Positions 7,201-57,874 of a stretch of DNA of 64,000 nt are shown in pieces. The stretch is from Pomacea canaliculata (taxonomy: Eukaryota; Mollusca; Gastropoda; Architaenioglossa; Ampullariidae). Location: the NCBI RefSeq assembly GCF_003073045.1, contig NC_037593.1:16668725-16732724 (forward strand), given 5' to 3'. The notes under the pieces are model-generated. The model worked only from the letters and a program-made list of their open reading frames with translations. It was not told where the DNA came from and did not search any database. Both the position numbers and the translations under genes were made by a program. Positions within the stretch are counted from its first letter, which is position 1, and the number at the start of each line of letters is the position of its first letter.

Positions 7201-10200
7201 CACGCTGTCGATGCTTTCGACTACGATCAGTTCAACTACCAGTACGATGACCTCAACTTCCACGGACTGACTATCCCTCAACTGGAGGAGGTCATCGAGA
7301 AGAGAAGAAGCGAGGACCGTGTATTCGCCAACTTCATGCTTCAGGTAAGTGTCCATGATGATTTATTCTCTTTCTTTTATCAACAGGTAATTGTGGTGAT
7401 TTATTGCGTAATGCTCTCATAACAACATATACAACTTTATGCTTTGGTTAAGTGTTTATTATTTTCTCATTTATGTTATGAATCTTGCTCACTTTTTTAT
7501 TGCTGGACGTATACATTGGGTCTCAGTATTTGTTATTTTAAAAAAATATTTTTGCCTTATTAACTTCTTTCTTATCGTCAATCCTCAAACCTAACTGACC
7601 ACTGGTAAACGAAAGAAGAAGAAATTTTTAGACCTGATTGTCAAATAACCTATAAATAGATTGCTTTACACGGTAATTAAATGAAATATGTTACTTCTTC
7701 ACAAAGACAACCGTGAAGGGGAGAAATAATTATTTTTTAGATCGTGACCTAGAAAGTCTTCAAAATTGATTCTCGTCTCTCCATAGTGATCAATAGTCTG
7801 TCTGCATCTTACATATATTCCTTTACATGGAATATTTTCAAAGCTTTAAAAAAAAGTCACAGATAAATTACAAATGACATATCTCTGTCAGGGTTTCAAA
7901 GCCAGCGCTGATGTGACCTTTGACCTGTGTGACGCCGACAACCACTGCAGCTTCGCCGGCACCTTCGCCGTGTTGGGCGGGCCTCTTGAGATGGACTGGC
8001 ACTTCGATCGCCTCTTCCAGTATGACGTCACTTCCGTCTTCAACCAGATGCACCTGCGTCGGACTCTGTCTACCACTTCGATGTGCACATCACGGCTATC
8101 AACGGCACTCAACTGGCTCGTCGCTGCTGGAGTCTCCATCCGTCAGCTTCGTGCCGGGCAAAGGTCAGACTAATGTCTTGCTGCATGTTACACGTGTTGT
8201 GTCTATCGTGCTGCTGTACTGCTCGTACCTATCACCTGCAAGGTGTTGATTAACCTGCTCATCTTACAAATCAGCGTAGGTTAGAAGATTTTCAAGACTC
8301 GGGTCAAGACGGCGATGTCCTTTGTGTCTGTGCAGGTAAGACTGGCAGCCGGGCTGTGGCCAAAGAAGACCCGCAACCCACGAAGACCAAAGATGTCGTG
8401 CGATATGAGGTGTCCGCCCTTAGCTTGGAGCAGGTACGATACCTCGGGTTTGGCATCTATCTGGATTCTATATTTGAGTAGATAGTGCTCCATCTAACTG
8501 TAATTTTACTGTGTTGTATGGCTATCAACACGGGTCTGTACACTAAGTATGTTCCTTTCAACTGCCTTGGATGATTATATAAGAATATAATTTATTTTTT
8601 CTGGATGTTTGTTTACCCGATATTCCGCATATAAACATGTCGAAATCATAACACAATAAGAAATTAAACAGTTTTGTCAGAGTTTTAATTATTTTCTTTT
8701 CCACCCATTTATCACTGGAAAATGTATCGTACACATACTGACCAAAAGCTACAGACTGAAGACTAGTGCAGAAAAGCCGTCACTGTATGTTGACCTCACT
8801 GACCTGTCTGTTTGTGTCCGTCAGGTGAGCAACCTAAAGAACGCGCTGTACAAGCTGCAGAACGACGACGGTCCCAACGGCTACGAGGCCATCGCCAGCT
8901 TCCACGGCGCACCCAAGCTGTGTCCGGAGAACGCCACCGACCGCTACGCCTGCTGCACGCACGCATGCCCGTCTTCCGCACTGGCACCGCCTCCTGACGT
9001 GCAGTTCGAGATGGCGCTGAGGGACAAGGGCGCTCTGATCGGCATTCCTTACTGGGACTGGACTCGCCCGTCCAAGGCTCTGCCTTCGCTCCTCACCAGC
9101 ACCGACAACAACCCCTTCTCCACGTGAGTAGCCCGCACTGGATCCTTCGGGATCTTTCCTGCGACTGGGATCGTCAAATGCTTGCATACTGTGTCGAGAG
9201 TGTCAGAGGTAGCAACACTCACTGATGTCTTGTCACTGACGTGAATGAAGTCTTTCTTATGCAACATAGAAAATTGATATACGGATGCGTACTTACAGTT
9301 ACCAGATCAAGTTCGCACAGCACGAGGTGACAAGGGACGTGCAACCAGGCTTGTACAACCGCCGGCAGCAAAGTGGTCTCGACTCCTTGTTCTACCAGAC
9401 GCTGGAGACGCTGGAGGAGACCAACTACTGCGACTTCGAGGTGCAGTTCGAGATGCTTCACAACACCATCCACGCGCTGGTAGGCGGCCACGGCACATAC
9501 TCCATGTCGACATTGGAGTACTCGGCCTTTGACCCCTTCTTCATGATCCACCACTCCAGCATCGACCGCATCTGGCAGATCTGGCAGACCCTACAGAAGC
9601 TGCGCAACGCTCCTTCAACTATGCTCGCTTGCCTCAGAAACCTCTACCGCCTCTGGAGCCTTCAACTACGAAAGCAAAAACCCCAACCCCGTCACCCGCG
9701 CCAACTCCCGACTGTCCAGATCTTCGACGCTTCTAAGTCCACTATAACTTCGACAACCTCAATCTAAACGGCACAGCGTGTCCGAGATCAACACCATCAT
9801 CGAGAACCTTCGCGACCGCGACCGCGTGTACGCCGGCTTCGTCTTGTCCGGAATCGGGTCAGCGCCACGGCCAACGTAAAACTCGTGCGCAAGGTGGCGA
9901 CCCTGTGACGTGGGGTCTTTCTACATCCTGGGCGGCGACGGCGAGATGCCTTGGGCCTACGAACGTGCGTGTACAAGTATGACGTCACTGATGCCTTGGA
10001 GAAGCTGGGCCTTAACGCCTACTCCAACTTCGGTTTCCAGGTGACGCTGACCAAGTATAACGGCGAGCAGCTGGACGCCAACCTGGCCACCCCTGTTGTC
10101 ATTTCTCGCCCCGCCCATGCCGACTACGACGTCCTGATTGTGCCATTATTCCCAGAAAACCAACTGCCTCCTAAGGTAAGCATCCTGCGTGACCAACGGA

Positions 10201-15713: not shown

Positions 15714-18700
15714 TCATGATAACAGGTTCATCCTACCGCTTTGCTTGAGGACATGGCGGCCGACCTCCGCAATGAAGTCAGTCCCTTCCTTTAATGTCTT
15801 AGGCGTCTCCCATGACTTAGCCGGCTTTGGATAGGTCACGTGCACGGCGTGTACATCTGTGACGTTGAACGGCAGCGTCGATTTTCTGTCGTCCATGCCA
15901 CGTCGGAAGTCCTTCTCCCATGTCGGGTGGCATATGTCGATGTAGCATATCACCTATGAACAGTTAAAAATACCCCACCCCAATGACTCGGTAATCCTAG
16001 AGTGTGAGCTATTACTTTACAGGCAAGTACCACGTTCAGTTTCAGGAATAAAGGTCTGCGACATCACTATGAGAGGATACACTTTGTGACACAAATTGTG
16101 TTTACACATACTTCTAAATAACATAATTATAGTCTCAGCTGATGTCTGTTTATTGCTGGCGTCTGTCAGTTTATGATACTGTTTGTGATCCTACTTATCA
16201 GCTGTCACCTTTAAGCAGCTGTGAACACAGTACAATCAGCTCTCACCTGTAAGCGGGTATAGACGTACATCTCGTCGGGGTAGTGTTCATACACCCGGTA
16301 TGGCAACTGGATGGCTGTGAAAGCTGTATGTGACTGCCGGTAGTGACGAAACGTGGTCAGCCAATGACGTAACCAGGGAGCCTGAGGTCGGGCCATTATG
16401 ACACCCAGGTTGAAGGAGTCAGGCCAGGAGTTATAGGCTGGCCAGTCGAACGTGGCCACGACCGGGTAGTGTAGCAGCCAGTCCGGCACCCGACTCGTCC
16501 ACACGGCGTCAGTGTCCATGTAGGCTCCACCGTAATTCAAAAGAAAGATGGCCCTGCCCGCACGAGAGGGACAAGGGCAAATATGATGAGGGCGGCTTGG
16601 TGATAGTGGTAGTGAGCGGTGAGAATGATTATGCATATTACGTGAGACAGAGGGGGCAGAGAGAACAAGTTAGCGACGGAAAAAGACGAAAAACTGGCAA
16701 ATGAATGAACACAAGCATACAGACAGACAAGTGGACAGACAGGTGTTAAGAGAAAGACTTCGGGGACAATTTCAATTATGTAAAATTAGTTGAATGAAAA
16801 TTCATCAGTAAAGACAACATCCGTAAAAACATTTTGTTTCAATGCTTACAAATTTTACACCCTACATATAGATTCTTCTTCAAAGAGATGTTTCTAGAAC
16901 CAGTGACGACATGTTTAAGAAAGCAGTTTCTAAAAGAAAGCTATGCTTACCTCGGGGAAAAATTGAGAATAAGACATGAGCTGCTAGTTGATGAATATTT
17001 AGGCAGACATACTCTTTTGTAGCTAAGTTTTTTCCTAAAATTGTTGAAAAGTTCTTTAAAAAGGAGATTTATACAGATAATTGGTCCAAATCTACTTTCC
17101 TTACTTTGTTTCAAAGGAAACATTTCGAATAACGTTCTTAACTATAGACTATAGAGATATTTTTCTTCGTGACATAATTAGTAAGGTGTCTATAGATTTA
17201 TAATTAACAACAGATTAAAGGAATAGATAGCATAAAATAACATATAGTGCTATGAAAATGTAAGTCTTGTTTTAAGAGAGGCTATTTAAACCTTTATTTT
17301 ATGTTTTTCTTTGCTATGGGGTGGGGTGGGGGGGGGGGGGGGGTTTTGTACAAAGCCAGGGTACAAACTACAAAACAAAATGTTCCATATATTGTCAACC
17401 TCTTTGCCACGTTAACATTTGAGTTTAGATGCTCATACATTAAATAATCCAGTCTATAATTAGATTCCTTGTGAAGTGCTGAATAAAAGTTACTGGTTTA
17501 TTGAAATTTTTGAGAATGTGTGTGTGTGTCTCCTAACCATGAAGAGTTAAGTTACAGCTTTCTTGCCCTCTTGCCTAGGAATATAGGGGTACTCAGCAAG
17601 GGCAACGTGCAACACACATCTGATAGTACTTTTTTCGGTGTCATACCTCTGAGAGGTCGCTTTGGCCTGAAGAATAGGAAAGGTTCATCTGGAACATGGG
17701 AGTCGGCCTCTTCGGTTCTGAACGAAGGTAGGTGACATTCTCCGAGCGTATAAGCTGTTCTCGCATATTCGCCTTCAGGTTCCACGTGTGCCCATGGACA
17801 TACACGTGTTCAAAGCCCCGACGTAGAGGGCGCTGATCATGCTCAGGACTTGGAGAAAGGCAGGTCACGGTCGCTGGCGTGAATTGGGTCAGCTTCAGCC
17901 CACACGTCTTAGTGCCCGCGATCGCGCGGGAATGGGTCGGATGGGGTCAGGAGGAAGGGCAAGTATCGGGGAAGCGCTGTTTTTTTGCCCGTTTTTTAAA
18001 TACAGCCAAGGACGCCGCTGCCTGCGTAACGCCGGTCTCGCTTGCACACGTCACGGGCGGACTTGATACGCTCACTGTCGACTATGATGCTTGAATTCGT
18101 CAACAGGTTGCCGTGTACTGCGTTCCGCTTGTGACGCAAGAGGCTTGGGCTGTCTTGACGTCAGGAGATAGTCATGTGACTTTCGCCTGGTGTTGTTGGA
18201 AGCCACGCTGCCACCGCGATACAAGCACTCCACGAATGACGTCTTCGCCAGACAAGTGTCCCAGACCAAACGGCATGTTGTTGTACCTTCCTGTAGGCCA
18301 GACGAGCGAAACTACAGGGCTAGTTTTCGCCAGAATTCATTTCCTCCTCTCGGCTCGGCGCAAAGCTTCCATTTTCTTTCGGACACTCCTTCTAGCCTGT
18401 CTTTTCTCCCACATGTACCGAGATACTAATTGAAGCTAGTCTGGAATATATGTGGGACGGTAGTATTTGAACTCGTTCAAAGCCTTGAAGGTGTTGTGTA
18501 GAGGTTTTCAGAGCTCTTGCGCAGGGTGTGCAGAAAGATTGTATCTTCTGAGGCTCGAAGAATCCGTGATGAGGGGAGAACAAGGTAGTGTCGACAAGGG
18601 AACTGCTGTTACACACACAGATAGTGACACGTCCGAGGCAGCCTTAGCGAAACCGAGGGCTTAGGTCCACACTGGCCAGTGTCTTCGCACGAAACTGAGG

Positions 18701-19033
18701 GTCCCGGTAAAAGTGGGCATGGCGGAATTCCTTGTCAGGGCTTTTGAGGAGGAGCAGGAGTGATAGGATGCGGGTCCCGATGGAGGGAAATGTGAGGGCA
18801 AGGGGACCTCAGATTTTTGTCTTCTTTAGTCCAGACACAGGCCCGTGGTCTACTTGTCATTCTTTATTTCTATGTATTTCCTTTAAAACTTCACTCGCAC
18901 CTGTCTGCTAGGCTAGGACTATATCTAGATTTTCGTGGAAGCCCACGAAACTGCGGCTATAGCCCAGCAAAATAACTCCGAACACCACTGCTCCCAAAAG
19001 TATTTTCCGGTAGTTCAGATGCATGCGAGCCAT
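15714..19033 (-). CDS. DXD glycosyltransferase copy A (GT32-like); exon 1 badly disrupted
   Basis: First of five minus-strand paralogues. Exon 1 is about 17647-19033, exon 2 16247-16553, exon 3 15714-15953. Start ATG at 19031-19033 gives MARMHLNYRK then a membrane segment, close to copy D. Exons 2 and 3 are clean: exon 2 has LLNYGGAYMDTDAVW with the DTD metal/nucleotide-sugar motif, and exon 3 ends DLLS-like then stop. Exon 1 between about 17.65 and 18.95 kb aligns with the other copies throughout but carries many small insertions, deletions and substitutions. It reads either as a pseudogene exon or as uncorrected long-read sequence. The clean flanking exons favour the second reading. Function as for copy D. 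Confidence 0.75.
17320..17345. repeat. Poly-G tract in intron 1 of copy A
   Basis: G-rich run ending in about 17 consecutive G on the plus strand (poly-C in the transcript). Confidence 0.9.
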
Positions 19034-25072: not shown

Positions 25073-27613
25073 AATACAGTGAAGTAATATGCTGCGAGAC
25101 TACCTTTCCCTCACATGCAAGGAGAAACATTATCTTTATGGACATGTCTCGTCACTTGGTGGACATAACCTGTTGTGCAATGGCTATCTCGGGGACAGGT
25201 TCAGATCATGACACCGCGACAGATTGCACCAGACCTGTCCTACAGGCTGTGGAGACCAGACAATGCACTCTCCTGTCCTGTCGTTGGCTCCACCCGCTAC
25301 TGTCACTTCGAGGAAGGAGATTACCTGGCAAATCAGAGCTGACAGGGCTGGAGTACTACCCCTACCCCTACCCTTAAGGTCTAAGCCATCAACTATTCCA
25401 AGAGCAGCCTGACACTCGACTATAGGGATTATTTTTTTTTTACAGCAGTACTCAACTTTCAGAATGCAGCATTGCAGCACGACAGGTCCGTCAAGCTGGC
25501 AGCAGCAAAAAATATGGGTGCATAGTCTTTTGTTCGTGAGATCGTCTAGATTGTTCTGTTTACAGCTGTGGTTGAAAGGGTGCAGCGAGGTGTAACAGCA
25601 TGTTTGGTGTGGACAAAGACCTCGAGTCTTCTAGAAAGTAGTGTTTGTTTCTGCGTGCTTGCGTGCGAGTGCAACTGCATCCGTATTTTAAACCAGGTCT
25701 GGCTCTGGTTTCCTTTTGTGTTTTTACAGGTTGAAGCAACTCGATCTTGACCAACTCTGTACCACCAATCTGTGATATAATCTTTGCACATTGTGTGCAT
25801 GTCTCTTGCCTGTATTTTGTTATCAGACTGTTTAATTTTCTTTGATCTATATGCATTAGTTGCAGGAGTGTACCTATTTCTTACATTTGTGTCTTCAACC
25901 TGTATAATTTTCTTCATCCCAAGTGTGTATATTACACAGTGTACATAATTCTTTACATTTATATGTTGCTAACATGTATTGTTTCTCGTGTGAATATCGT
26001 GTTTTTCATGGTGTGTACATTTATATTTCTTTTGTTTATTATTTATATCCTCTTGAATATAATTTTTCCTTTTACCTAGAATAGAGAAATGTTTACTACA
26101 TGTGACTGTACAGTTGTGATCGTGTTGCCTGCACACATTTAAACAGAACACATGAGTATAAAACATAACTGGTTTAAATGAGGCATGCTGTAAATGCCAG
26201 CCATTTTAATAAATTATCCAGAAGACATGCTTATGAGCTAAACCCTTGCTAAACAATAAGGTTAGTTGTAAAATAATAAAAGAACAGAAAAATTAGCCCC
26301 ATAATCTTCTTCATTGACTCCACTATCTCAGAACCGAGTTTGATGTCATAGGTCACCATGTAAAACAAAATTATACACACACTAATTACATGATTTATGA
26401 CAAATGGTTGTAAATTCTTTATTTACTATGACTTCATCCCCAAGAATCATATGTATTAAAAACTTACAAATGTGACAGCATCAAAGGTTTATTTGGCTTT
26501 TATATGTGGTGACTCTTCAGCAGTGAGAATAAGTCATGTTGTTAAATTTTTTATTAGCAGACTGCAGTCAAATGTATTCATAAACGATGAAGTAAATGTT
26601 TCTCAAGTTAGTTTTTAGAAAGAACTTGTAGCTAACAATTAATTTCACTCTGCAAACCTATCATCATTTGTTAATAAATATTTAATAATGACCTGCACAC
26701 ATTTTCCCGCATATCAAATGCGTAGCATGCATTTATTAACCTTATCTCAATTTTAATTCTTGTACAGTTGTTTAATTTTAGTTGCCTGTATTGTTATTTT
26801 AGTCATTTTAAACTGACTTAAACTAAAACAGTTTTCAAAAGTAAAACAGACCTACCAGCAGAGAAAAACAGAAAATACATTATGACTTTCCAACAACCTA
26901 ATATTTTCTGACGCATTGGCAGCTTGTGATAATATTGTGGTCCATGCAGTGTAATAATGCTTGATCTCAAAGGTTTCCCCAGGAACATATCACATGACTT
27001 CACATACTTAAGAAATCACATCTTGATCCACCATTCTTTTTTTATTATTGAAATTAAAATAAAAATGCCTGAGAATGATGCGAAAAAGATGAGTAAATAA
27101 AGCTTTCCAAAATATTAATGTAGCCATGGTGAGATAATGTGCACATAGAAAACATACACCCACTTTTTCATCTTGTCATTTTAAAACAAAGTCAAAATAT
27201 TAAAATTGAATTAGTAAAACATAGCATTCCATAAACATGTCCCAGCTGATCACCCATTACGAAACCTTTGCGCAGATGAAAAATTGACATTGATGCATGA
27301 ATTGACAGATGCAGTTAAAGGACAGTTACACAGAATACGTCCCGCTACGTCGTTGAACGTTGGAAAGAAAGTGGCTGTAATAGTAACATATTCCAATCTT
27401 TGGAAAAAGGTTGGTACCCTCCTTATAGTTCTTGGACGCGTCAAATGACATGAAGTCTTAGAGGTCACGTGCTAGGCATGCAGTTCTGTAACGTTGAACA
27501 GATTTGTCGGTTTATTGTCTTTCAAATCTCATTGAAAAATCCTTACACGACGCGCGCATACTTTCTCAATTTATTTTACCTTCAAGTACTACCAATGTCC
27601 TTTCAGAGGTCTG
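25073..27613. other. Intergenic DNA; 3' flank of copy B
   Basis: 25073-25400 resembles 53560-53830. 25550-25750 is one of five copies of an upstream block (block W, also at about 31200, 42710, 54180 and 58970). About 26900-27000 and 27200-27480 match parts of the 3' flanks of other glycosyltransferase copies. No gene seen. Confidence 0.5.
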
Positions 27614-30041
27614 TCATTGTAACAGGTGCATCCTGCCGCTTTGCTTGAGAACATTGAGACCGAACTCCGCAAAAAAGTCGGCCCCCTTCTTTAATGTCTT
27701 CGGCGTCTCCCATGACGCAGCGGGCTTTGGCTGGGTGACGTGCATGGCGTGTACATCTGTGACGTTAAACGGCAGCGTCGGTTGCTTGTCGTCTAAGTCT
27801 CGCATGAAGTCCTTCTCCCACGTCGGATGGCATATGTTGTGGTAGCAAATTACCTATGAACAGTTTGAATCCACTAGTCAAAGGTCTAAGGACTAAGTAC
27901 TATTTCTTTTCTTATGACTATAAAAGCTCGGTGCCAAATATTATTTCGCGGAATATGCAGTAACCATCTTCCGTTTCCGACATACAGGTGTACACATCAG
28001 CGTGAAAACATGCGTCTAATTCACACGTGTCCCAACTGTCGAAATGCATCTAGCATTGACAATGTAAAGATATTACAATACACATTACATGTAACTAACT
28101 TCCTTCAGTTTATGATAATGTTTGTGGGTCTAATTATCAGATCTCACCTGTAATCGGCTGTAGACGTAAAGTTCATCGGGGTAGTGTTCATACACCCGGT
28201 AAGGCATGAGCGTAGCCGTGAAGCCAGAATCTGACAACCGGTAGTGACGAAACGTGGTCAACCAATGACGTAACCAGGGGGCCTGTGGTCGGGCTAGCAA
28301 GACGCCCAGGTTAAAGGTGTTAGGCCAGGGGCCACTTATTGGCCAATCGAAGGACGCGACGACAGGGTAGTGAAGCAGCCAGTCCGGCACCCGACTCGTC
28401 CACAAGGCGTCGGTGTCCATGTAGGCTCCGCCGTAATTCAAGAGCAAGATGGATCTGCCCGCACGAAAAGGAAGACTAAAGAATTTGATGAAGGTCGTTT
28501 GATGAAGAGAGATGATGTGGTAGTCAGTAGTTATAATGGTCTGAAGGTTATGCGAGACAGAGGGAGGAGAGAAGAATATGATTTTGAAGAAAAACGATAA
28601 ACAGGCAACTGACTGGACACAGGCAGGAAGAAGGCAGACAGAGAAGGAGAGAGACAGATATTAAGGACCAAAAAAATTCTGAGAGTGAACGACATTTACA
28701 TTCTTGCTTCCTCACTATCATATCTGCACAGCCCCCTTCCCCTATTCTTGGCTCGTACGCCACTGACACAGCAACAGACTTTTCTTAATACCTGAGGAAG
28801 TCGCTGCTGGCCTGGAGATTAGGAAAGTCCATCTGAAACATGGGAGTCGGCTTCTCGATTCTGACGAAGGTGACATTCTCAGAGCGTAGCTGTTGCCACC
28901 ATTCGCCTTCAGGTTCCATGTTGCCATGGACATACACATGTTGAAAGCCCCCGACGTAGAGGGCGCTGATCATGCTCAGGAACTTTGAGAAGGGCAAGTC
29001 CAGGTCAGCGGCTGAGGGGTTCTTCTTCAGCCACACGTAGTGCGCGATACGCGGGATGGGTCGGCTGGGGTCAGGAAGGGCAAGTATCGGGGAGCGCCTG
29101 CCGTAATACAGCCAGCGAGCCAGCTCCGCGAACGGCGTCTGCCCTTGCCACAGTCACGGGGATGTACGTCACTGTCGACTATGATGCAATGAATGTCGTC
29201 AACAGGCGCCGTGTACTGCTCCGCTGTGACGCAAGAGGCTTTGGCTGACTTGACGTCACGGAGATAGTCATGTGACTTTGTGTTGTTGAAGCCACGCTGC
29301 GCGATCAGCACTCCACGACTAACGTCCTCGCCAGACAAGGCCAACCATAACGGCATGTGTTCTATTCCTGTAGGCAGACGAGGAATAAGGGCATTTTCGC
29401 CCAGAACAATTCCTCCTTCTGTCGGCAAGAGCTCCAACACAGCCTTCAGTGAGTCTTTTCTCCCACAAGTACCAGAGACCTGAAGCAGCTGGAAATTGGG
29501 GACGGAGTATTTGAACTCGTCAAACCAGGTGTTGTAGAGGTTGCCGTCGTTTTGGGGCAGATGGTCGTGCAGAAAGATTACCTTTGAGGCTCGAAGAATC
29601 CTGATGGAGGAGAGGAGAACAAGGTAGTGTCCAAAGAGGAACTGCTTGTCACCGCACCACAGATAGTACACTGTCCGAGGCAGGCCTCCCAGCGTGAGAC
29701 CGAGGCTTAGATCCACACCTGGCCAGGTGTCTTGGACGAAGAAGTCACGGTATAGAGGCATAGCGGCACCTTTTGATCCCTGAGGGAGGTCTGCGGGGGA
29801 TTCTGAGGGGAGGGGGCTTCTGAGGGGGAGGGACTTCAACTTTATTTTTATTCCTATGAAAAATCTCACTTTCGCTCTTTAATCGAGTGATTTCTTTTAA
29901 ACTTTCCTCACAGTTCTGCAGGGCAAGACTAGATCGAAAATTTTTCTGATTTATCAAAAACTGCCCAGCTGCCAGCAAAGCAAGCACGAATATCGTCGCT
30001 TTGAACAATATTCTCCGGGTGTTTGGAAGCATACAAGCCAT
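27614..30041 (-). CDS. DXD glycosyltransferase copy B (GT32-like), two frame breaks
   Basis: Exon 1 28792-30041, exon 2 28148-28454, exon 3 27614-27853; same splice phases as the other copies. Type II membrane protein: MACMLPNTRRILFK, hydrophobic anchor, charged stem with heptad-like EESLKEITRLKSES, Pro-rich linker, then two tandem glycosyltransferase-like halves. The second half carries YGGAYMDTDALW. Two single-base changes break exon 1: one in the Pro-rich linker near 29800 and one near 29153 (a C missing in CCACACGTCACG, as read in other copies). Exons 2 and 3 are intact. Exon 2 is of the B/E type (FNLGVLLARPQ, YVYSRLQ). Likely a Golgi enzyme; acceptor and donor sugar unknown. Confidence 0.83.
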
Positions 30042-36411: not shown

Positions 36412-38861
36412 TTATGACAACAGGTCCATCCTACCACATTGCTTGAGGACATGGCGGCCGACCTCCGCAATGAAGTCAGTCCCTTCTTTTAATTCCGTTG
36501 GCGTCTCCCATGACACAGCCGGCTTTGGAGCGGTCACGTGCACGGCGTGTACATCTGTGACGTTGAACGGCAGCGTCGATTTTCTGTCGCGCATGACACG
36601 TCGGAAGTCTTTCTCCCACGTCGGGTGGCATATGCCAAAGAAGCATATCACCTATGAACGATTACAAAATTACCCACCTCATTTTTTAGAGGTCTCAGGA
36701 AAGTACAGATTTTTTATGACTGGGTAATGCTAGAGTGTGAGCTAGTACATCACAGAATATGCAATAACCACCTTCCGTTTCCGGCATAGAGGTCTACAAC
36801 ATCACCATGAAAGATGATACTCCTTGTGACGTAATGTACACAACATGTAATTCACCGCTGATTTTACTATGTGATAATAATGGTGGGTCTATTTATCAGC
36901 TCTCACCTGTAAGCGCGTATAGACGTACATCTCGTCAGGGTAGTGTTCATACACCCGGTATGGCAACTGGATGGCCGTGAAAGCTGTATGTGACAACCGG
37001 TAGTGACGAAACGCGCTCAGCCAATGACGTAACCAGGGAGCCTGAGGTCGGGCCATTATGACACCCAGGTTGAAGGAGTCAGGCCAGGAGTTATAGGCTG
37101 GCCAGTCGAACGTGGCCACGACCGGGTACTGTAGCAGCCAGTCCGGCACCCGACTCGTCCACACGGCGTCAGTGTCCATGTAGGCTCCACCGTAATTCAA
37201 GAGAAGGATGGCCCTGCCCGCACGAGAGAGAGGCGGGCAAATGCGATGAGGGCAGGTTGATGATAGTGATAGTGAGCGGTAAGAATGATATGCATATTAC
37301 ATGAGAGAGGAGGAAGAGAGACTAAGTGACAGGCAAATGATTAAACATAAAAGGAAAAGAAGGCAAATAGACAATGGGACAGACAGATGTTAGGCTTGCC
37401 TTGGTAAATAATGAGATATCAGCTGTTTGTTGTAGATCAATTAGAGCAGTCCTGTTCTATTGTAGCTGAGCTGCTTCTGAAATTGTTTAATGGTATATTT
37501 AAAAAGGACATTAATCCAGGTAAATTATTTGTAAGTACTTTGTTTACCTTGCTTTAAAAGGGGTATTTCAAATGACGCTAAAGGGGAAGCAAGCTGTAGA
37601 TTGACTCCATCCAGGCACACATTCACACAATACCTGAGGAGGTCGCTGTTGGCTGGAAGAATAGGAAAGTCCATCTGAACATGGAACTCGGCCTCTCAGT
37701 TCTGACGAAGGTGACATTCTCCGAGCGTAGCTGTCGCCACCATTCGCCTTCAGGTTCCACGTTGCCATGGACATACACGTGTTGAAAGCCCCCGACGTAG
37801 AGGGCGCTGATCATGCTCAGGAACTTTGAGAAGGGCAAGTCCAGGTCACCGGCTGAGGGGTCAGCCTTCAGCCACACGTAGTGCGCGATACGCGGGATGG
37901 GTCGGCTGGGGTCAGGAAGGGCAAGTATCGGGGAGCGCCTGCCGTAATACAGCCAGCGAGCCAGCTCCGCGAACGGCGTCTGCCCTTGCCACACGTCACG
38001 GGGATGTACGTCACTGTCGACTATGATGCAATGAATGTCGTCAACAGGCGCCGTGTACTGCTCCGCTGTGACGCAAGAGGCTTTATCTGTCTTGACGTCA
38101 CAGAGATAGTCATCGGACTTTGTGTTGTTGAAGCCACGCTGCGCGATCAGCACTCCACGACTAACGTCCTCGCCAGACAAGGCCAACCATAACGGCATGT
38201 GTTCTATTCCTGTAGGCAGACGAGGAATAAGGGCATTTTCGCCCAGAACAATTCCTCCTTCTGTCGGCAAGAGCTCCAACACAGCCTTCAGCGAGTCTTT
38301 TCTCCCACAAGTACCAGAGACTTGAAACAGCTGGAAATTGGGGACTGAGTATTTGAACTCGTCAAACCAGATGTTGTAGAGGTTGCCGTCGCTCTGCGGC
38401 AGATGGTCGTGCACAAAGATTATCTTTGAGGCTCGAAGAATCCTGATGGAGGAGAGGAGAACAAGGTAGTGTCGAAAGAGGAACTGCTTCTCACCGCACC
38501 ACAGATAGTACACTGTCCGAGGCAGGCCTCCTAGAGTGAGACCGAGGCTTAGATCCACACCTGGCCAGGTGTCTTGGACGAAGAGATCCCGGTAGAGAGG
38601 CATAGGCGGCTTCTTTTGATCCTTGGGGGAAGTCTGCAGGGGTTTCTGAGGGAAAGCGGCTTCAACTTTATTTTTATTACGATGAAATATCTCACTTTCG
38701 CTCTTTAATCTAGTGATTTCTTTTAAGCTTTCCTCACAGTTCTTTAGACTCGATCGAAAATTTTTCTGGTGAATCAAAAACTGCGCAGCTGCCAAAAAAA
38801 TTACCCCAAACAGCGTCGCTCTGATCAATATTCTTCGGATGTTTGGAAACATAGCAGCCAT
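36412..38861 (-). CDS. DXD glycosyltransferase copy C (GT32-like), apparent recombinant
   Basis: Exon 1 37634-38861, exon 2 36907-37213, exon 3 36412-36651. Start ATG 38859-38861 (MAAMFPNIRR) is chosen by agreement with the other copies; the frame is open 24 codons further up. Membrane anchor, coiled stem, linker PLQTSPKDQKKPP, first half with PRTVYYLW and EGGIVLGENA, second half with PRIAHYVW and YGGAYMDTDAVW. One G is missing near 37678, shifting the last 20 residues of exon 1 (SSMFRWTFLFF instead of SSMFQMNFPIL); otherwise intact. The N-terminal part resembles B and E; the exon 1 end (ERPSSMF) and exons 2 and 3 (PAYNSWPDSFNLGVIMARPQ) resemble A and D. Confidence 0.85.
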
Positions 38862-39603: not shown

Positions 39604-42600
39604 AGATTACTGTACGTCTATTGTGAATGATGATGGGTCTAGTGTTGACCCCCTTACATCAGAAACGCTCGATATTACAAGTTCGTCTGAGAGTCAGATA
39701 GTTCAGACTCAATTGTTATGTGGCCTTCTCAACGCCCAGTCGGTCGTCAGGAAGGCTGTGGACATTCACGATATGATTATTGACAAGTCACTGGATTTGC
39801 TGTTGCTCACTGAGACGTGGCTTAGGGAGGCTGGAGATGAATTTGTTATTAGGCAAATCACTCCTGTGGGATATTCGTTCATTCACAATCCCAGGTCTGG
39901 AGATAGATGTGGTGGTGGGATTGCTGCTGTATACAAGAAATCCGTGCTTTTGAGGCCGTTGGTGTCAGAAACGTTCAAGACTTTTGAGTCACTCAGTTTT
40001 GCCCTCACTCGTGGTTCACTGACGTTTCATGTCTTGCTTCTATATCGCCCTCCTTACTCTAGAAACAACAAAGTGACTAATTCAGCGTTCTGTGAAGAGT
40101 TTATTCCCCTGGTCTCCAACCTAGCTGCTGCCAACAAATACTTGTTAATTCTTGGAGATGTGAATCTTCATTTTGATGTGCCATCTGACCCTGATACGAA
40201 GAGACTTTGTCAGCTGTTGGATTCCCTTGATCTTGTTCAACATGTCAACTCCCCTACCCACTGTAAGGGTCACACCTTGGACTGGGTTATTGCGAGACCC
40301 GGCCATCACACTGTTAGGTCTATTGTTGTGGAAGACCTGCAACTTTCGGATCATTTTCTTGTGTTTGTTTACTACCAGCATGTCAAGGCCTGGCTTACCG
40401 AGAAAGACTGTGTACACTAGAAATGTGCGGGCATGGACTCTGATTCTTTTCGTACTGAACTTCAGCGTTCTGCTCTCCTGGTCTCCCCTCCTGACAATGT
40501 GGATGAGCTTGTGGCTCTGTACAACAGCACCCTGACTGCTCTTCTTGACAAGTTTGCGCCTGTGAAAAAGAGGTGCATTACTGAGCGTCCTGATACTGCG
40601 TGGTTTACTCCAGAGGTACGCCGAGCCAAGAAGGTCAGGCGTCAGGCGGAGCGCAAATGGCGCAAGAGTAGATTGGAGGTGGATCGTCAGATTTATCGCC
40701 ATACAAGGAGCCAGTGTTCAGCCATCATTGTCAAAGCTAGGTCGCGGTATGTTATGAATATTCTAAGCTCTGCAGTTTCTGATTCTCGCAAGATGTTCGC
40801 AGTTGTGAATGGTCTCCTGGGTAAAGATGTGACTCAGCCTGTTCTTCCAGAGATGGATGATCAGATCGCTGCCAGTACACTAAGTGCTTACTTTGAAGAC
40901 AAGATAAAGACCATCATGGACAGCTTCAGTGACTCGGTTGCTACTGTGGAGCAAACCAGTGACTTGTTTTGTGGCACGCCCCTCTCTAACTTTCAACCAG
41001 TGACAGAGGATGAACTAATTGAAATTAGTTCGGCGTTGTCGCCCAACCACGTCTGTGGATGATCCTATCCCACTAGTGTTCTTCTCCAGCACCTTGACAT
41101 TCTACTTCCTGTACTAGTTCGCATAGTCAATGCTAGCCTTTTCTCTGCCTCTGTACCCAGACAATTTAAAACAGCCGTGATCAAGCCTATCTTAAAGAAG
41201 CACAACTTGGACCCTAGCTTGTGTAAAAACTATAGACCTGTGTCGAATTTGCCTTTTGTTTCGAAACTTGTGGAGCGTGTCGTTGCTCAGCAGTTGACAT
41301 TCCACCTGGACCGCTACAGCTTATTGGATAAATTCCAGTCGGCGTATAGACCCAAGCACAGCTGTGAGATAGCCCTTCTGCGTCTTATGAACGATCTTCT
41401 GTGCAGTGCGGATGCAGGGAAAGTGACTCTTGTGGTCCTCCTGGATCTGAGTGCGGCCTTCGATGTCATTGATCACACCACTCTACTAACTCGTCTCCAG
41501 ATGGAGGTGGGCATTGGTGGTCCCGCCTTGCAGTGGTTCCATTCCTACCTCAGTGATCGCACACAAAGGGTGATGGTCAATCAAGCTTCTTCAGTGACAG
41601 TTCCACTGCTGTGCGGTGTCCCGCAGGGCTCTGTTTTGGGCCCGGTTCTATTTTCGATTTACACATCTCAGCTTGGTCCTCTCATTGAGAAGCATAATGT
41701 GAACCGTAAGATGTTTGCAGATGACACTGAACTCTATTTTTCATTTAGTACTGACAGTGAGGCGGTGCGTGAGGCAGTTTGTGCTGTAGAAGATTGTTGC
41801 TTAGAGGTCAAGTCATGGATGCTGAGGAATAAACTCAAGCTTAATGATGAGAAGACAGAGGCGATGCTATGTGGTTCCAAGCTTAGCCTTAGTAAAGTCT
41901 CTCTAGACTCCATCCAAGTGGGTCAAGCTAGAATTCCTCTCTCCAGCTCCGTACGGAACCTTGGACTCTATGTTGACAATCTTCTAACTATGTCTGATCA
42001 TGTCAGTTCTGTAGTCAAGGCGTGTTATTTCCATATCCGCACTCTTGGACGACTCCGACCCAGTCTTAATAAGAAGACTGCAAATGCAGTTGCTGTGTCC
42101 CTCATCGGTTCTACATTAGACTATGCCAACAGCTGCCTCTGGGGGATTTCAAAGAGCGAGTTGTCGAGGCTACAGCGAGTGCAAAATACGGCTGCGAGGA
42201 TAGTGGCAGGAAAGAAAACAACTGACCATATTACTCCTGTACTTCGTGACCTACATTGGCTTCCTGTGGAGAAGCGAATTGAGCATAAATTGTTAACCTT
42301 AACCTATGGCTGTCTTCATGACCTTGCGCCTGCCTATCTGCAAGAACTCATTCGCTGTTACCAACCCCAGCGGAACCTTCGTTCAGCAGCACACTTCAGA
42401 CTTGAACGACCGAGTGTTCAGTCAGGGAATGCTAATAAGAAGACTGCGGGTTTCAGATCCTTCTCCAATGTAGCCCCGCTTTTGTGGAACTCGCTTCCCC
42501 TCTCGACCAAGGAGTCTGATAGTATTGGATCTTTCAAGAAAAATCTGAAGACTCACTTGTTTAAACTTTTTTGAAGTTTTCATTTGACCTGCAGTTTGGT

Positions 42601-45114: not shown

Positions 45115-48003
45115 TTATGATAACAGATCCATCCTACCAGATTGCTTGAGGACATGGCGGCCGACCTCCGCAGTGAAGTCAGTCCCTTCCTTTAATTTCT
45201 TAGGCGTCTCCCATGACTTAGCGGGCTTTGGATAGGTCACGTGCACGGCGTGTACATCTGTGACGTTGAACGGCAGCGTCGGTTTTCTGTCGTTCATGCC
45301 ACGTCGGAAGTCTTTCTCCCACGTCGGGTGGCATATGTCGATGTAGCATATCACCTATGAATTATTACAAAAATACCCCACCCCATTTGTTAGAGGTCTT
45401 GGGAAAGTGCAATTTTCTTTTTATGACTGGGTAATGCTAGGGTGTGAGCTATTACATTACAGAATATGCAATAACCACCTTCCATTTCCGGAATAGAGGT
45501 CTACAACAGTATCATGAAAGAGGATACACCTTGTGAATTAACTTTTATCAGCACATACATCTAATTCACAAATAGTCTCAGCTGATGTCTGTTATTATTT
45601 TTTGTTTGTTTGGTTTTTTTTTGTTTTTTTTTTTGCTGTCTTCTTTAACTTTGTCATAATAATGTGGGTCTATTTATCAGCTCTCACCTGTAAGCGGGTA
45701 TAGACGTACATCTCGTCGGGTAGTGTTCATACACCCGGTATGGCAACTGGATGGCCGTGAAAGCTGTATGTGACTGCCGGTAGTGACGAAACGCGCTCAG
45801 CCAATGACGTAACCAGGGAGCCTGAGGTCGGGCCATGATGACACCCAGGTTGAAGGAGTCAGGCCAGGAGTTATAGGCTGGCCAGTCGAACGTGGCCACG
45901 ACCGGGTACTGTAGCAGCCAGTCCGGCACCCGACTCGTCCACACGGCGTCAGTGTCCATGTAGGCACCGCCGTAATTCAAAAGAAAGATGGCTCTGCCCG
46001 CACGAGAGGGAGACGATGTGATGAGAGCGGCTTCATGATAGTGGTAGTCAGCGGAGATAATGATAGGCATATTGTACGAGACATAAGGAGGAGAAAGACT
46101 AAGTGACGGAGAAAGAGGAAGAACAGACAAATGACTGAACACAGGCAGCAAGAAGGTAGATAGGCAAGAGGACTAACAAATGTTGAGGAGCAATTAAGTG
46201 ATTATGAAATCATTGCGGAATCATTTGTTATTATTTTCATTTAACAACGTTGCTGGCAAGCTCACTGGATTAATGCCATGAACTATTTCCTAAAAAAAAG
46301 TACAACTGTGCAATTAGATTGCATATTTCGATACATTATTACCCATAACTGGAAACCTTCACTTGAATTCAGCACACTAAAGTTACCTATCTGCTCATCT
46401 GTTACAAAAATTGTGTTGCACGGTGGAATTACCAACAGATTCAAAAAGGTCATTGTTAAGAAACGTAAATCTCCTTTTGTTTTAAGAGAGGCTAGGTTTC
46501 CTTTGTTATACCAATTAACACTTAAAAAACAATTTGTAATTACCATATGTAATGTCAGTTTTTAATATCAACCTCTTAACCTCATATTTATTTGAGTTTA
46601 GACGCTAGTACAGTAAATCATCTAGTCAATACTCAAATACTTAGTAAAGTCCTCAATAGAGTGTACACATCCTAACCCTGATGAGCCAAGCTACAGTCAC
46701 AAGGCCATTACATCTGTAAGAAAAATATAAGCGAGCACACACACACACACACTGAAAGACATTTTATGGACTGTCAATACCTGAGGAGGTCGCTGTTGGC
46801 TGGAAGAATAGGGAAGTTCATCTGGAACATGGAACTCGGCCTTTCAATTCTGACGAAGGTGACATTCTCAGAGCGTAGCAATCGCCACCATTCGCCTTCA
46901 GGTTCCACGTTGCCATGGACATACACGTGTTGAAAGCCCCCGACGTAGAGGGCGCTGATCATGCTCAGGAACTTGGAGAAGGGCAGGTCACGGTCAGCGG
47001 CTGCGGGGTCAGCCTTCAGCCACACGTAGTGCGCGATACGCGGGATGGGTCGGCTGGGGTCAGGAAGGGCAAGTATCGGGGAGCGCCTGCCGTAATACAG
47101 CCAGCGAGCCAGCTCCGCGAACGGCGTCTGCCCTTGCCACACGTCACGGGGATGTACGTCACTGTCGACTATGATGCAATGAATGTCGTCAACAGGCACC
47201 GTGTACTGCTCCGCTGTGACGCAAGAGGATTTGGCTGACTTGACGTCACTGAGGTAGTCATGTGACTTTGTGTTGTTGAAGCCACGCTGCACGATCAGCA
47301 CTCCACGACTGACGTCCTCGCCAGACAAGGCCAACCATAACGGCATGTGTTCTATTCCTGTAGGCAGACGAGGAATAAGGGCATTTTCGCCCAGAACAAT
47401 TCCTCCTTCTGTCGGCAAGAGCTCCAACACAGCCTTCAGTGAGTCTTTTCTCCCACAAGTACCAGAGACCTGAAGAAGCTGGAAATTGGGGACGGAGTAT
47501 TTGAACTCGTCAAACCAGGTGTTGTAGAGGTTGCCGTCGCTCTGCGGCAGATGGTCGTGTAGAAAGATTATCTTTGAGGCTCGAAGAATCCTGATGGAGG
47601 AGAGGAGAACAAGGTAGTGTCGAAAGAGGAACTGCTTCTCACCGCACCACAGATAGTACACTGTCCGAGGCAGGCCTCCCATCGTCAGACCGACGCTTAT
47701 ATCCACACCTGGCCAGGTGTCTTGGACGAAGAGGTCCCGGTATAGAGGCATAGGCGGCCTTTTTTGATCCTGCGGGGGCTTGTTAGGGAGAAGGACCTCG
47801 ATTTTGTTTTGAGTCAGACAAGCCTTCTCATTTTCGCTCTTTAATCTAGCGATTTCATTTAAACTATCCTGACAGTTCTGCAGAGAAAGACTCGATCGGG
47901 AATTTTTCTGGATAAACAGAAATTGCCCAACTGCCAGCAAAACAACTCCGAACACCGTTGCTCTCAACAGTATTTTCTTGTAGTTCAGATTCCAGCCAGC
48001 CAT
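45115..48003 (-). CDS. DXD glycosyltransferase copy D (GT32-like), best-preserved exon 1
   Basis: Transfers a sugar from a nucleotide sugar; acceptor unknown. Exon 1 46781-48003, exon 2 45688-45993, exon 3 45115-45354, about 589 residues. Order: short cytosolic end, anchor about residues 11-31, charged stem 36-68, Pro-rich linker 70-86. Half 1 has PRTVYYLW at 112-119, EGGIVLGENA at 199-208 and SRGVLIVQR at 232-240. Half 2 has PRIAHYVW at 321-328, YVHGN at 361-365, then NYGGAYMDTDAVW with D421-T-D423 and FNLGVIMARPQ. The two halves look like repeats, with DTD in half 2 against GEN in half 1. A type II anchor suggests Golgi. Exon 1 is fully open; one G is missing in a GGGG run near 45720, shifting the end of exon 2. 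Its 5' flank differs from the other copies. Confidence 0.88.
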
Positions 48004-55301: not shown

Positions 55302-57874
55302 CTACCCTTCTTCACCAAAAGATGCCCTTTCTGAGGTCTGTAACAGGTGCATCCTACCGCTTTGCTTGAGAACATGGCGGCCGACCTCCGCAAAAAAGTC
55401 GGTCCCCTTCTTTAATGTCTTCGGTGTCTCCCATGACGCAACGGGATTTGGATGGGTGACGTGTATGGCGTGTACACCTGTGACGTTAAACGTCGTCGGT
55501 TTCCAGTCGTATGACTCTTGCCAGGAGTCCTTCTCCCACGTCGGATGGCATTTTTCAAAGTAGCATATCACCTATGAACAGTTTGAATCCACTAGTCAAA
55601 GGTCTAACAAAAGATTGAGCAGTTTTCTCTTCTTATGACTATGTCTAAACTCGGTGCCAAATATTAGTTCCCATAATATGCAATGACGACTTTCCAATTC
55701 CAACATACAGGATTACAAACATCAGCGTAAAAGTTGATACACCTTTTGACATGTCTAGCATTGACAACGTAAAGATATTACAATACACATTACATGGAAC
55801 TAACTTCCTTCAGTTTAGGGTAATGTTTATGGGTCTAATTATCAGATCTCACCTGTAATCGACTGTAGACGTAAAGTTCATCGGGGTAGTGTTCGTACAC
55901 CCGGTATGGCAACATGATGGCCGTGAAGCCGGAATCTGACGACTGGTAGTGACGAAACGTGGTCAACCAATGACGTAACCATGGAGCCTGTGGTCGGGCT
56001 AGCAAGACGCCCAGGTTAAAGGCGTTGGGCCAGGGGTCCCAATTTTGCCAGTCGAACGTTGCCACGACCGGGTAGTGTAGCAACCAGTCCGGCACCCGAC
56101 TCGTCCACACGGCGTCGGTGTCCATGTAGGCTCCACCGTAATTCAAGAGAAGGATTGCTCTGACAGCAAAAAAAGGAAGACTAAAGAATGTGATAAGGCC
56201 CATTTGATGAAGAGATAATGTGGTAGTCAGATGTGATAATGGTCGGCAGGCTACGTGAGACAGAGGAAGGAGATAAAAGTATTTTATTGGCAAAAAAAAA
56301 AAAGAAAAGATAAACAGGCAAAACTGAATAAACGCAGCAAGAAGGCGGACAGACAAGGAGAGACACAGATGTCAAGGATCAGAGTGAGCCAGGCAGTTAC
56401 ACATATCAGAACAGAGACAAACCTCCTCCGCAACACACACAGACAACAGTTGCGTAGGACGATATCTTTGTGGGGACAACCTCCATGCAGACAGAGAACG
56501 ACTTTCACATTCTTGCCTCCTCAGTATAATTTTTGAGGCGGGCGCTGCACCCTTTGCCATCTGCTTTTTACGCCACTGACACAACAACAGACTTTTCTTA
56601 ATACCTGAGGAAGTCGCTGTTGGCCATAGAATAGGAAAGTCCATCTGGAACATGGGAGTCGGCTTCTCGATTCTGACGAAGGTGACATTCTCCGAGCGTA
56701 GCTGTTGCCACCATTTGCCTTCAGGTTCCACGTTGCCATGGACATACACGTGTTGAAAGCCCCCGACGTAGAGGGCGCTGATCATGCTCAGGAACTTGGA
56801 GAAGGGCAGGTCACGGTCAGCAGCTGAGGGGTCAGCCTTCAGCCACACGTAGTGCGCGATACGCGGGATGGGTCGGCTGGGGTCAGGAAGGGCAAGTATC
56901 GGGGAGCGCCTGCCGTAATACAGCCAGCGAGCCAGCTCCGCGAACGGCGTCTGCCCTTGCCATACGTCACGAGGATGTACGTCACTGTCGACTATGATGC
57001 AATGAATGTCGTCAACAGGCACCGTGTACTGCTCCGCTGTGACGCAAGAGGATTTGACTGTCTTGACGTCACGGAGATAGTCATGTGACTTTGTGTTGTT
57101 GAAGCCACGCTGCGCGATCAGCACTCCACGACTGACGTCCTCGCCAGACAAGGCCAACCATAACGGCATGTGTTCTATTCCTGTAGGCAGACGAGGAATA
57201 AGGGCATTTTCGCCCAGAACAATTGCTCCTTCTGTCGGCAAGAGCTCCAACACAGCCTTCAGTGAGTCTTTTCTCCCACAAGTACCAGCGACTTGAAGCA
57301 GCTGGAAATTGGGGACGGAGTATTTGAACTCGTCAAACCAGGTGTTGTAGAGGTTGCCGTCGTTCTGCGGCAGATGGTCGTGCATAAAGATTATCTTTGA
57401 GGCTCGAAGAATCCTGATGGAGGAGAGGAGAACAAGGTAGTGTCGAAAGAGGAACTGCTTGTCACCGCACCACAGATAGTACACTGTCCGAGGCAGGCCT
57501 CCTAGCGACAGATCGAGGCTTAGATCCACACCTGGCCAGGTGTCTTGGACGAACAGGTCCCGGTAGAGAGGCATAGGTGGCACCTTTTGATCCTGCGGGG
57601 ATGTCTGTGGTGGCTTCTGAGGGGTATGGAGATTTTCAGGTGTAGGGGGCTTCTGAGGAAAAGTGACTTTGACTTTATTTTTAGTCCGATTAAATATCTC
57701 ACTTTCGCTTTTTAATCTAGTGATTTCTCTTAAGCTTTCCTCACAGTTCTGCAGAGAAAGGCTCGATCGGGAAATTTTCTGGATATACAGAAATTGCGCA
57801 ACTGCCAGCAAAATAACCCCGAACAGCGTCGCTTTGAACAATAGTCTTCGGATGTTTGGAGGCAAGCCAACCAT
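55302..57874 (-). CDS. DXD glycosyltransferase copy E (GT32-like), longer linker and tail
   Basis: Exon 1 56605-57874, exon 2 55853-56159, exon 3 55302-55571. Start at 57872-57874 (MVGLPPNIRRLLFK). It has the same anchor, stem and two-half plan as the other copies. The Pro-rich linker is longer, with repeated PQKPP motifs. Half 1 has EGAIVLGENA and half 2 has YGGAYMDTDAVW. One small indel near 56625 (expected PANSDFLR) shifts the last residues of exon 1, which would otherwise run open through the splice donor. Exon 3 differs: WQESYDWKPTTFNV lacks a codon, and the C-terminus runs on past HLLQ to FGEEG. Exon 2 is of the B type. Confidence 0.84.

Follow-up and report, generated by a model that had tools for sequence, protein, structure and literature searches.

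The genes described here lie in a stretch of 64,000 nucleotides of Pomacea canaliculata DNA, called the window in what follows, which corresponds to C4:16668725-16732724 in an assembly of 440,159,624 bases in 24 contigs. The gene termed copy D is read on the minus strand and ends with a stop codon at 45117-45115. Its features, in window positions, are the following.

48003-45115, minus strand: copy D gene; three exons, membrane-anchored protein with two related halves
46781..48003, minus strand: exon 1; open frame, 3' end AG/GT (site read in the sequence)
47044..47670, minus strand: half 1; 209 codons, GT32-like domain without the donor-site residues
47383..47391, minus strand: GEN codons of half 1, opposite the DXD
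45688..45993, minus strand: exon 2; helix and YGGAYMDTDA of half 2
45948..45956, minus strand: DTD codons of half 2
45115..45354, minus strand: exon 3; C-terminal part of half 2, with a counterpart in all five copies of the window

Exon 1 encodes, in this order, a short tail, a hydrophobic anchor, a stem, the complete half 1 and the first part of half 2. Splicing from 46781 to 45993 at the AG/GT site puts YGGAYMDTDA at residue 415. With the exon 1 frame and this splice, the residue numbers given in the preliminary description were recovered, namely PRTVYYLW at 112, EGGIVLGENA at 199, SRGVLIVQR at 232 and PRIAHYVW at 321 besides residue 415, and the spacings of 88 and 95 residues between the first motif and the GG follow from them. 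Both the profile alignment and the motif table also set GEN of half 1 opposite DTD of half 2, just as had been proposed.

The gene cluster and its relatives

Seven cluster copies are present on C4. Copies A to E are inside the window; F and G are outside, F at C4:16733858, just past its end, and G at C4:17224714, half a megabase off. Copies A, B, C and E share the layout of copy D, copy A with a ruined exon 1.

15717..19033, minus strand: copy A; exon 1 badly decayed, with stops and changes of frame; exons 2 and 3 readable
27620..30023, minus strand: copy B; motifs GEN / DTD, exon 1 with two 1-base lesions, whole half 2 readable
36415..38861, minus strand: copy C; motifs GEN / DTD, exon 1 with a single 1-base lesion close to its end
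55341..57874, minus strand: copy E; motifs GEN / DTD, exon 1 with a single 1-base lesion close to its end, the GG of half 1 being GA

Second, decayed exon-3-like stretches are seen downstream of copies B and F (window 27463-27537; L010:385-522; L011:672-803). Between copies C and D, a LINE-type element is represented by frames for endonuclease and reverse transcriptase on the plus strand at 39623-42574. The glycosyltransferase cluster is adjoined by five plus-strand frames with tyrosinase domains (1488-9764), one of them also with a haemocyanin beta-sandwich; judged by these domains, the stretch is a haemocyanin-type gene.

The family was surveyed in Pomacea canaliculata as the sole animal genome. 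Queries made from either half yielded at least 13 two-half loci in seven lineages, a lower bound. Besides the cluster, there is one such locus each at C1:43.3 Mb, C10:9.47, C1:18.97, C2:34.3, C3:24.5 and C8:1.2. The C8 lineage is an intronless, unbroken two-half frame of 574 codons from stop to stop (L057:3622-5343), with donor-site residues missing from both halves. At least six single-domain relatives were also found (C3:11.4, C4:31.46, C4:31.50, C1:32.4, C12:11.7 and C9:27.0, the first five of which were read in sequence), along with at least two more distant PF04488 genes on C13. Two scans, one of viruses queried with exon 2 and one of genomes queried with a single-domain exon, revealed no close prokaryotic or viral relatives.

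A hydrophobic anchor near the N terminus (19-residue mean hydropathy of at least 1.6) was observed in 11 of the 12 rows examined. In C1:43.3 and C1:18.97 it lies in a different frame from half 1, and the exon read for C2 has none. The family is thereby predicted to consist of type II membrane proteins of the Golgi type.

Homology and fold of the two halves

The GT32 family PF04488 (Gly_transf_sug) matches the spliced half 2 of copy B with 34.1 bits against a curated cut-off of 23 (E 4.7e-8). The exon 2 frame of copy D alone reaches E 3.6e-4 and 21.6 bits, which is under the 23-bit cut-off. At E up to 1, eight of the nine half 2 members match this family and none of the nine half 1 members does. 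The GT32-like character suggested earlier for both halves was thus recovered by direct profile search for the rear half, but not for the front one. Half 1 of copy D has no Pfam family for its domain at E up to 10; the half 1 members taken together hit no glycosyltransferase family in Pfam, only two unrelated families with one member each (E 0.088 and 0.14).

Against the PDB, the half 2 profile gives weak matches to GT-A structures, with a best E of 2.5e-5 and 55 sequences at E up to 1; no match was obtained for exon 1 of copy D, and no chain is matched by the half 1 profile. AlphaFold2, run on a four-row alignment of window sequences only, returned a mean pLDDT of 33.8, with all 298 residues under 50. 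Half 1 would nevertheless be expected to adopt a GT-A fold, since it is homologous to half 2, whose profile weakly matches such structures.

The homology itself, also part of the preliminary description, holds through the paralogues and not through copy D by itself. In copy D, the Smith-Waterman score between the halves is 38, and 60 of 1000 shuffles score as high, so that this gene alone does no better than chance. The single-gene match exceeds all 1000 shuffles in three of the seven lineages (C1:43.3, C10 and C1:18.97); it is reached by 10, 53 and 444 of 1000 shuffles in C2, C3 and C8, respectively, the half 2 rows of C2 and C3 being partial, with the first strand missing. When profiles are compared, half 1 scores 79 against half 2 (at most 20.7 in 100 column shuffles, 14.6 when reversed) and 96 against the single-domain relatives (at most 17.8 in 100 column shuffles, 15.9 when reversed). 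Another profile run, whose half 2 rows included two single-domain ones, returned 98.4% and a score of 102. In the genome search, a half 1 query of the C2 lineage retrieved the half 2 of C1:18.97 at E 1.8e-6. Chance resemblance of the halves was ruled out by the profile scores with their shuffled and reversed controls.

A tree of 17 rows was built, in which 7 of the 14 inner branches are weak. The half 1s group together (100/99), as do the half 2s (99/99). The cluster pairs with C1:43.3 in both halves (97/99 and 96/93), and C2 pairs with C3 in both (83/83 and 99/99). Since each set of halves groups and the same pairs recur, a single doubling or fusion took place before the seven lineages split; a doubling and a fusion of two relatives look alike in such a tree.

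Donor site, cysteines and constraint

The D..R pair is counted among the donor-site residues. The tryptophan of strand 1 and the DXD bind the donor in related enzymes, as described in the relevant part of PMC6393602. At the place of the DXD, the two halves read as follows.

Cluster: half 1 GEN, half 2 DTD
C1:43.3: half 1 GQD, half 2 DRD
C10: half 1 GEN, half 2 DWD
C1:18.97: half 1 SFS, half 2 DWD
C2: half 1 PDD, half 2 DGH
C3: half 1 PED, half 2 DNN
C8: half 1 MGD, half 2 TCN

The first Asp of the DXD is missing from half 1 in all seven lineages. So are the Asp at -11 and the Arg at -8 from the GG when read without gaps; once gaps are allowed, a Lys-Asp pair is found two residues further out in half 1 of copy D. 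The strand 1 Trp is retained in every half 1, and position +7 is occupied by Asp (four lineages), Asn (two) or Ser (one); the ability to bind a nucleotide or metal could therefore have been kept to some extent. The half 1 of C10 reads RYGGVYIGEN at the corresponding place. The loss of the DXD alone is no proof of inactivity either, as LtpM is described as active with DxN instead of DXD (PMC6393602) and BoGT6a as active with NXN (PMC3961637), in the portions of these sources that deal with them.

Half 2 retains W, D..R and DXD altogether in four of the seven lineages, namely the window cluster, C1:43.3, C10 and C1:18.97. In C2, C3 and C8, the Trp, the Asp at -11 and the full DXD are lost together; C2 and C3 still have the Arg and the first Asp of the DXD, and a Cys replaces the strand 1 Trp itself. 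Among three single-domain rows, Ile stands for Trp in one (C12). C2, C3 and C8 thus look dead in both halves. 'Dead' is, however, not certain, because the Arg is retained in the half 2s of C2 and C3, and the DNN of C3 has the DxN form of the active LtpM. It had been proposed that an active domain is fused to a pseudo-catalytic one. This fits the four lineages in which the rear half has the full set and the front half lacks it, but it is not general, as the rear half looks dead too in the other three.

Half 1 is further marked by its cysteines. A Cys directly after the Trp and another 13-19 residues before the GG are present in all seven half 1s as against none of the ten other domains. The half 1 of copy D has four cysteines only, and its second pair is also seen in the C1:43.3, C2, C3 and C8 rows, the C10 and C1:18.97 rows ending before that region. 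Two disulphides are predicted from this pattern, one of which would span the former donor pocket. In length, too, half 1 stands apart: five complete rows have 194-211 residues, fewer than the 235-264 in the five complete rows of half 2, and the shortening is mostly beyond the DXD position.

The preliminary description had taken the retention of GEN in copies B, C, D and E as a sign that the change is not random decay. GEN is indeed kept in B-E, and in fact in all six readable copies, B-G, copy A being too decayed. It says little about selection, though, because the DNA concerned is nearly identical between the copies. The half 1 DNA of the cluster copies is 96.6-98.1% identical, with dS 0.04-0.08 and dN/dS 0.25-0.55 in every pair. 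The step from shared GEN to selection was consequently rejected. Mean identity of B-G is 0.91-0.99 in 60-column windows from 47748 to 46908 (a tract of about 47748-46849). It is 0.72-0.89 upstream of the tract and 0.87, 0.69 and 0.39 downstream, the latter two values being largely intron. Exon 2 of the cluster has dS from 0 to 0.43 and exon 3 from 0.10 to 0.66; A, C, D and G hardly differ in exon 2 (dS 0-0.07), which limits the contrast between half 1 and exon 2 to pairs across subgroups. It appears from these values that the central part of exon 1 of B-G was probably homogenised by gene conversion.

What does argue against random decay is the set of deep paralogues, whose front half, old and under constraint, has lost its donor site. 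The motif itself varies among them, so that GEN is no conserved feature; the constant is the lost first Asp and D..R pair. Between copy D and C1:43.3, half 1 has dN 0.46-0.49 and dS 1.9-2.9 (dS near saturation), exon 2 has dN 0.21 and exon 3 has dN 0.35-0.38. In 14 of 21 lineage pairs, similarity is lower for half 1 than for half 2. Together with the dN/dS values, this means that half 1 is under constraint, though a somewhat weaker one than half 2.

The role of the front half

The reading that we favour, with moderate confidence, is that the rear half is the enzyme and the front half a non-catalytic accessory in a Golgi-type family born of an old doubling or fusion. An internal doubling, or a fusion, of GT32-like domains would have founded the family. 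Wherever W, D..R and DXD are kept (cluster, C1:43.3, C10 and C1:18.97), the rear half would be a metal- and nucleotide-sugar-dependent glycosyltransferase. GT32 enzymes are of the retaining type. The front half, shorter and devoid of the first Asp of the DXD and of the D..R pair, would be its non-catalytic relative. The cysteine pair specific to half 1, at positions 9 and 72 of that half, one member after the strand 1 Trp and the other before the helix leading to the GG, would probably form a disulphide across the old donor pocket. The result may be a rigid accessory module that assists the folding, dimerisation or acceptor positioning of the rear half. As the donor residues were lost long ago and the front half was kept all the same, its part is probably to help the rear half and not to catalyse a reaction of its own.

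The silent look of both halves in three lineages points to partner or chaperone roles there. The C2, C3 and C8 proteins may be partners or chaperones of active paralogues, with half 1 as the pairing surface; among the other explanations this one survives best, yet we consider it doubtful. It is in line with the joint loss of Trp, Asp and DXD in their half 2s, with the open frame of C8 and with exon 3 of C2 and C3, where dN is 0.39-0.41 against a dS of 1.3-3.6. COSMC, moreover, is a known inactive glycosyltransferase relative, as PMC7185993 describes it. The retained Arg of C2 and C3 and the LtpM-like DNN of C3 speak against it. A broader scenario can be offered just as tentatively: in a gastropod family founded by doubling, the front copy could have become a disulphide-locked, donor-blind module, and three branches, silenced in both halves, could now steer or chaperone the active paralogues.

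It is less likely still that half 1 is a working, metal-independent glycosyltransferase with an altered donor motif, giving a protein with two activities. The DxN and NXN enzymes mentioned above provide precedents for this, and the constant Trp and the Asp or Asn at +7 in six of seven lineages would suit it. The motif, however, differs among the paralogues, the D..R pair is gone throughout, and the domain is shortened, with a cysteine pair flanking the pocket.

We give as little credence to the suggestion that the cluster consists of pseudogenes whose motif change reflects decay. In the present assembly, none of the seven cluster copies is free of frame lesions, and the decay of copy A is plain. 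Aligned over exon 1 (47760-46783), copies B-G show four gaps, two in B, one in C and one in E, all of a single base. Copies D and G have one lesion each near the end of exon 2; in copy D, one base is missing near 45720 when copies A, B, C, E and F are taken as the reference, and the exon end is shifted as a result. Exon 3 has one lesion in copy F and seemingly one extra base in copy G. Outside copy A, then, the lesions read are single-base and mostly deletions. Such lesions are the kind left behind by long-read assemblies. The Pomacea canaliculata genome was assembled from PacBio reads, as stated in the assembly account of PMC6129957. In the same assembly, six contiguous, intronless-looking HSP70 copies could be discerned from the coordinates among 58 matches; three are open, two have one frame change and one has several. 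Intronless HSP70 copies with frame changes are seen, for instance, at G000:C1:13863214-13870090. Frame changes in such copies suggest residual single-base errors in the assembly, and it is likely that assembly error explains much of the damage in the cluster copies. Against the pseudogene explanation there is also the fact that the donor-site loss is common to all seven lineages, including the unbroken C8 frame, and the half 1 dN/dS among copies, which indicates constraint, though not a strong one.

That half 1 is not a glycosyltransferase domain at all and its motifs resemble one by chance can hardly be maintained: the self-matches of copy D, C2, C3 and C8 are not significant (the C2 and C3 rows being partial) and half 1 finds neither a glycosyltransferase family in Pfam nor a PDB chain, but its profile scores exceed the highest of 100 shuffles some four- to fivefold, single-domain genes included, and the C10 motif sits at the equivalent place.

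The favoured reading, an active rear half with a silent accessory in front, has partial parallels in known systems. Within PF04488, the likeness lies in the half 2 score and in the W, D..R and DXD of the four lineages; the difference lies in half 1, none of whose nine members matches the family, and in the two-domain chain of the snail. LH3/PLOD3 is described as having a GT-like catalytic domain and a non-catalytic accessory (AC) domain in one chain (PMC6082870), and so resembles the snail family in having two GT-like domains, one catalytic and one accessory. In LH3, however, the front domain is the active one and a hydroxylase domain follows, whereas in the snail family the rear half is the candidate enzyme; LH3 is also absent from the 55 PDB sequences matched by the half 2 profile at E up to 1. 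For EXTL3, the front GT47 domain is reported to appear inactivated while the rear domain binds UDP, in a protein that is membrane-anchored with a stem (PMC9178029). It shares the inactivated front domain, the anchor and the stem with the snail family, but its halves differ in fold (GT-B and GT-A), while both snail halves come from one kind of domain. LH3 and EXTL3, as portrayed in those accounts, show that an inactive glycosyltransferase domain can be kept beside an active one.

COLGALT1/2 and LARGE1/2 have tandem GT-A domains as well, according to the overview in PMC7185993. They are of other GT families, and the entries there give the COLGALT front domains predicted donors and do not call them dead. 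COSMC (C1GALT1C1) is presented in the same overview as a relative without DXD and activity that took on a new role; unlike the snail halves, it is a separate protein, of GT31. No description of a tandem GT32-like family in molluscs was found among the literature titles listed. Both halves being derived from one kind of domain, with the front one predicted to be silent, the snail family would be a variant on the known tandem arrangement that is apparently undescribed.

What the silent domain is for in tandem glycosyltransferases is often unresolved, and the sections concerned leave it open for LH3 (PMC6082870) and EXTL3 (PMC9178029). The snail family offers a natural series for testing what a dead glycosyltransferase domain contributes, with four active-looking rear halves, three that are not, and a loss in the front half that predates the seven lineages. 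The predicted disulphide, confined to half 1, would be a simple and testable mark of the switch. Molluscan N-glycans are described as very diverse in the relevant part of PMC8699351, and, as a guess, the family could belong to the molluscan N-glycan machinery.
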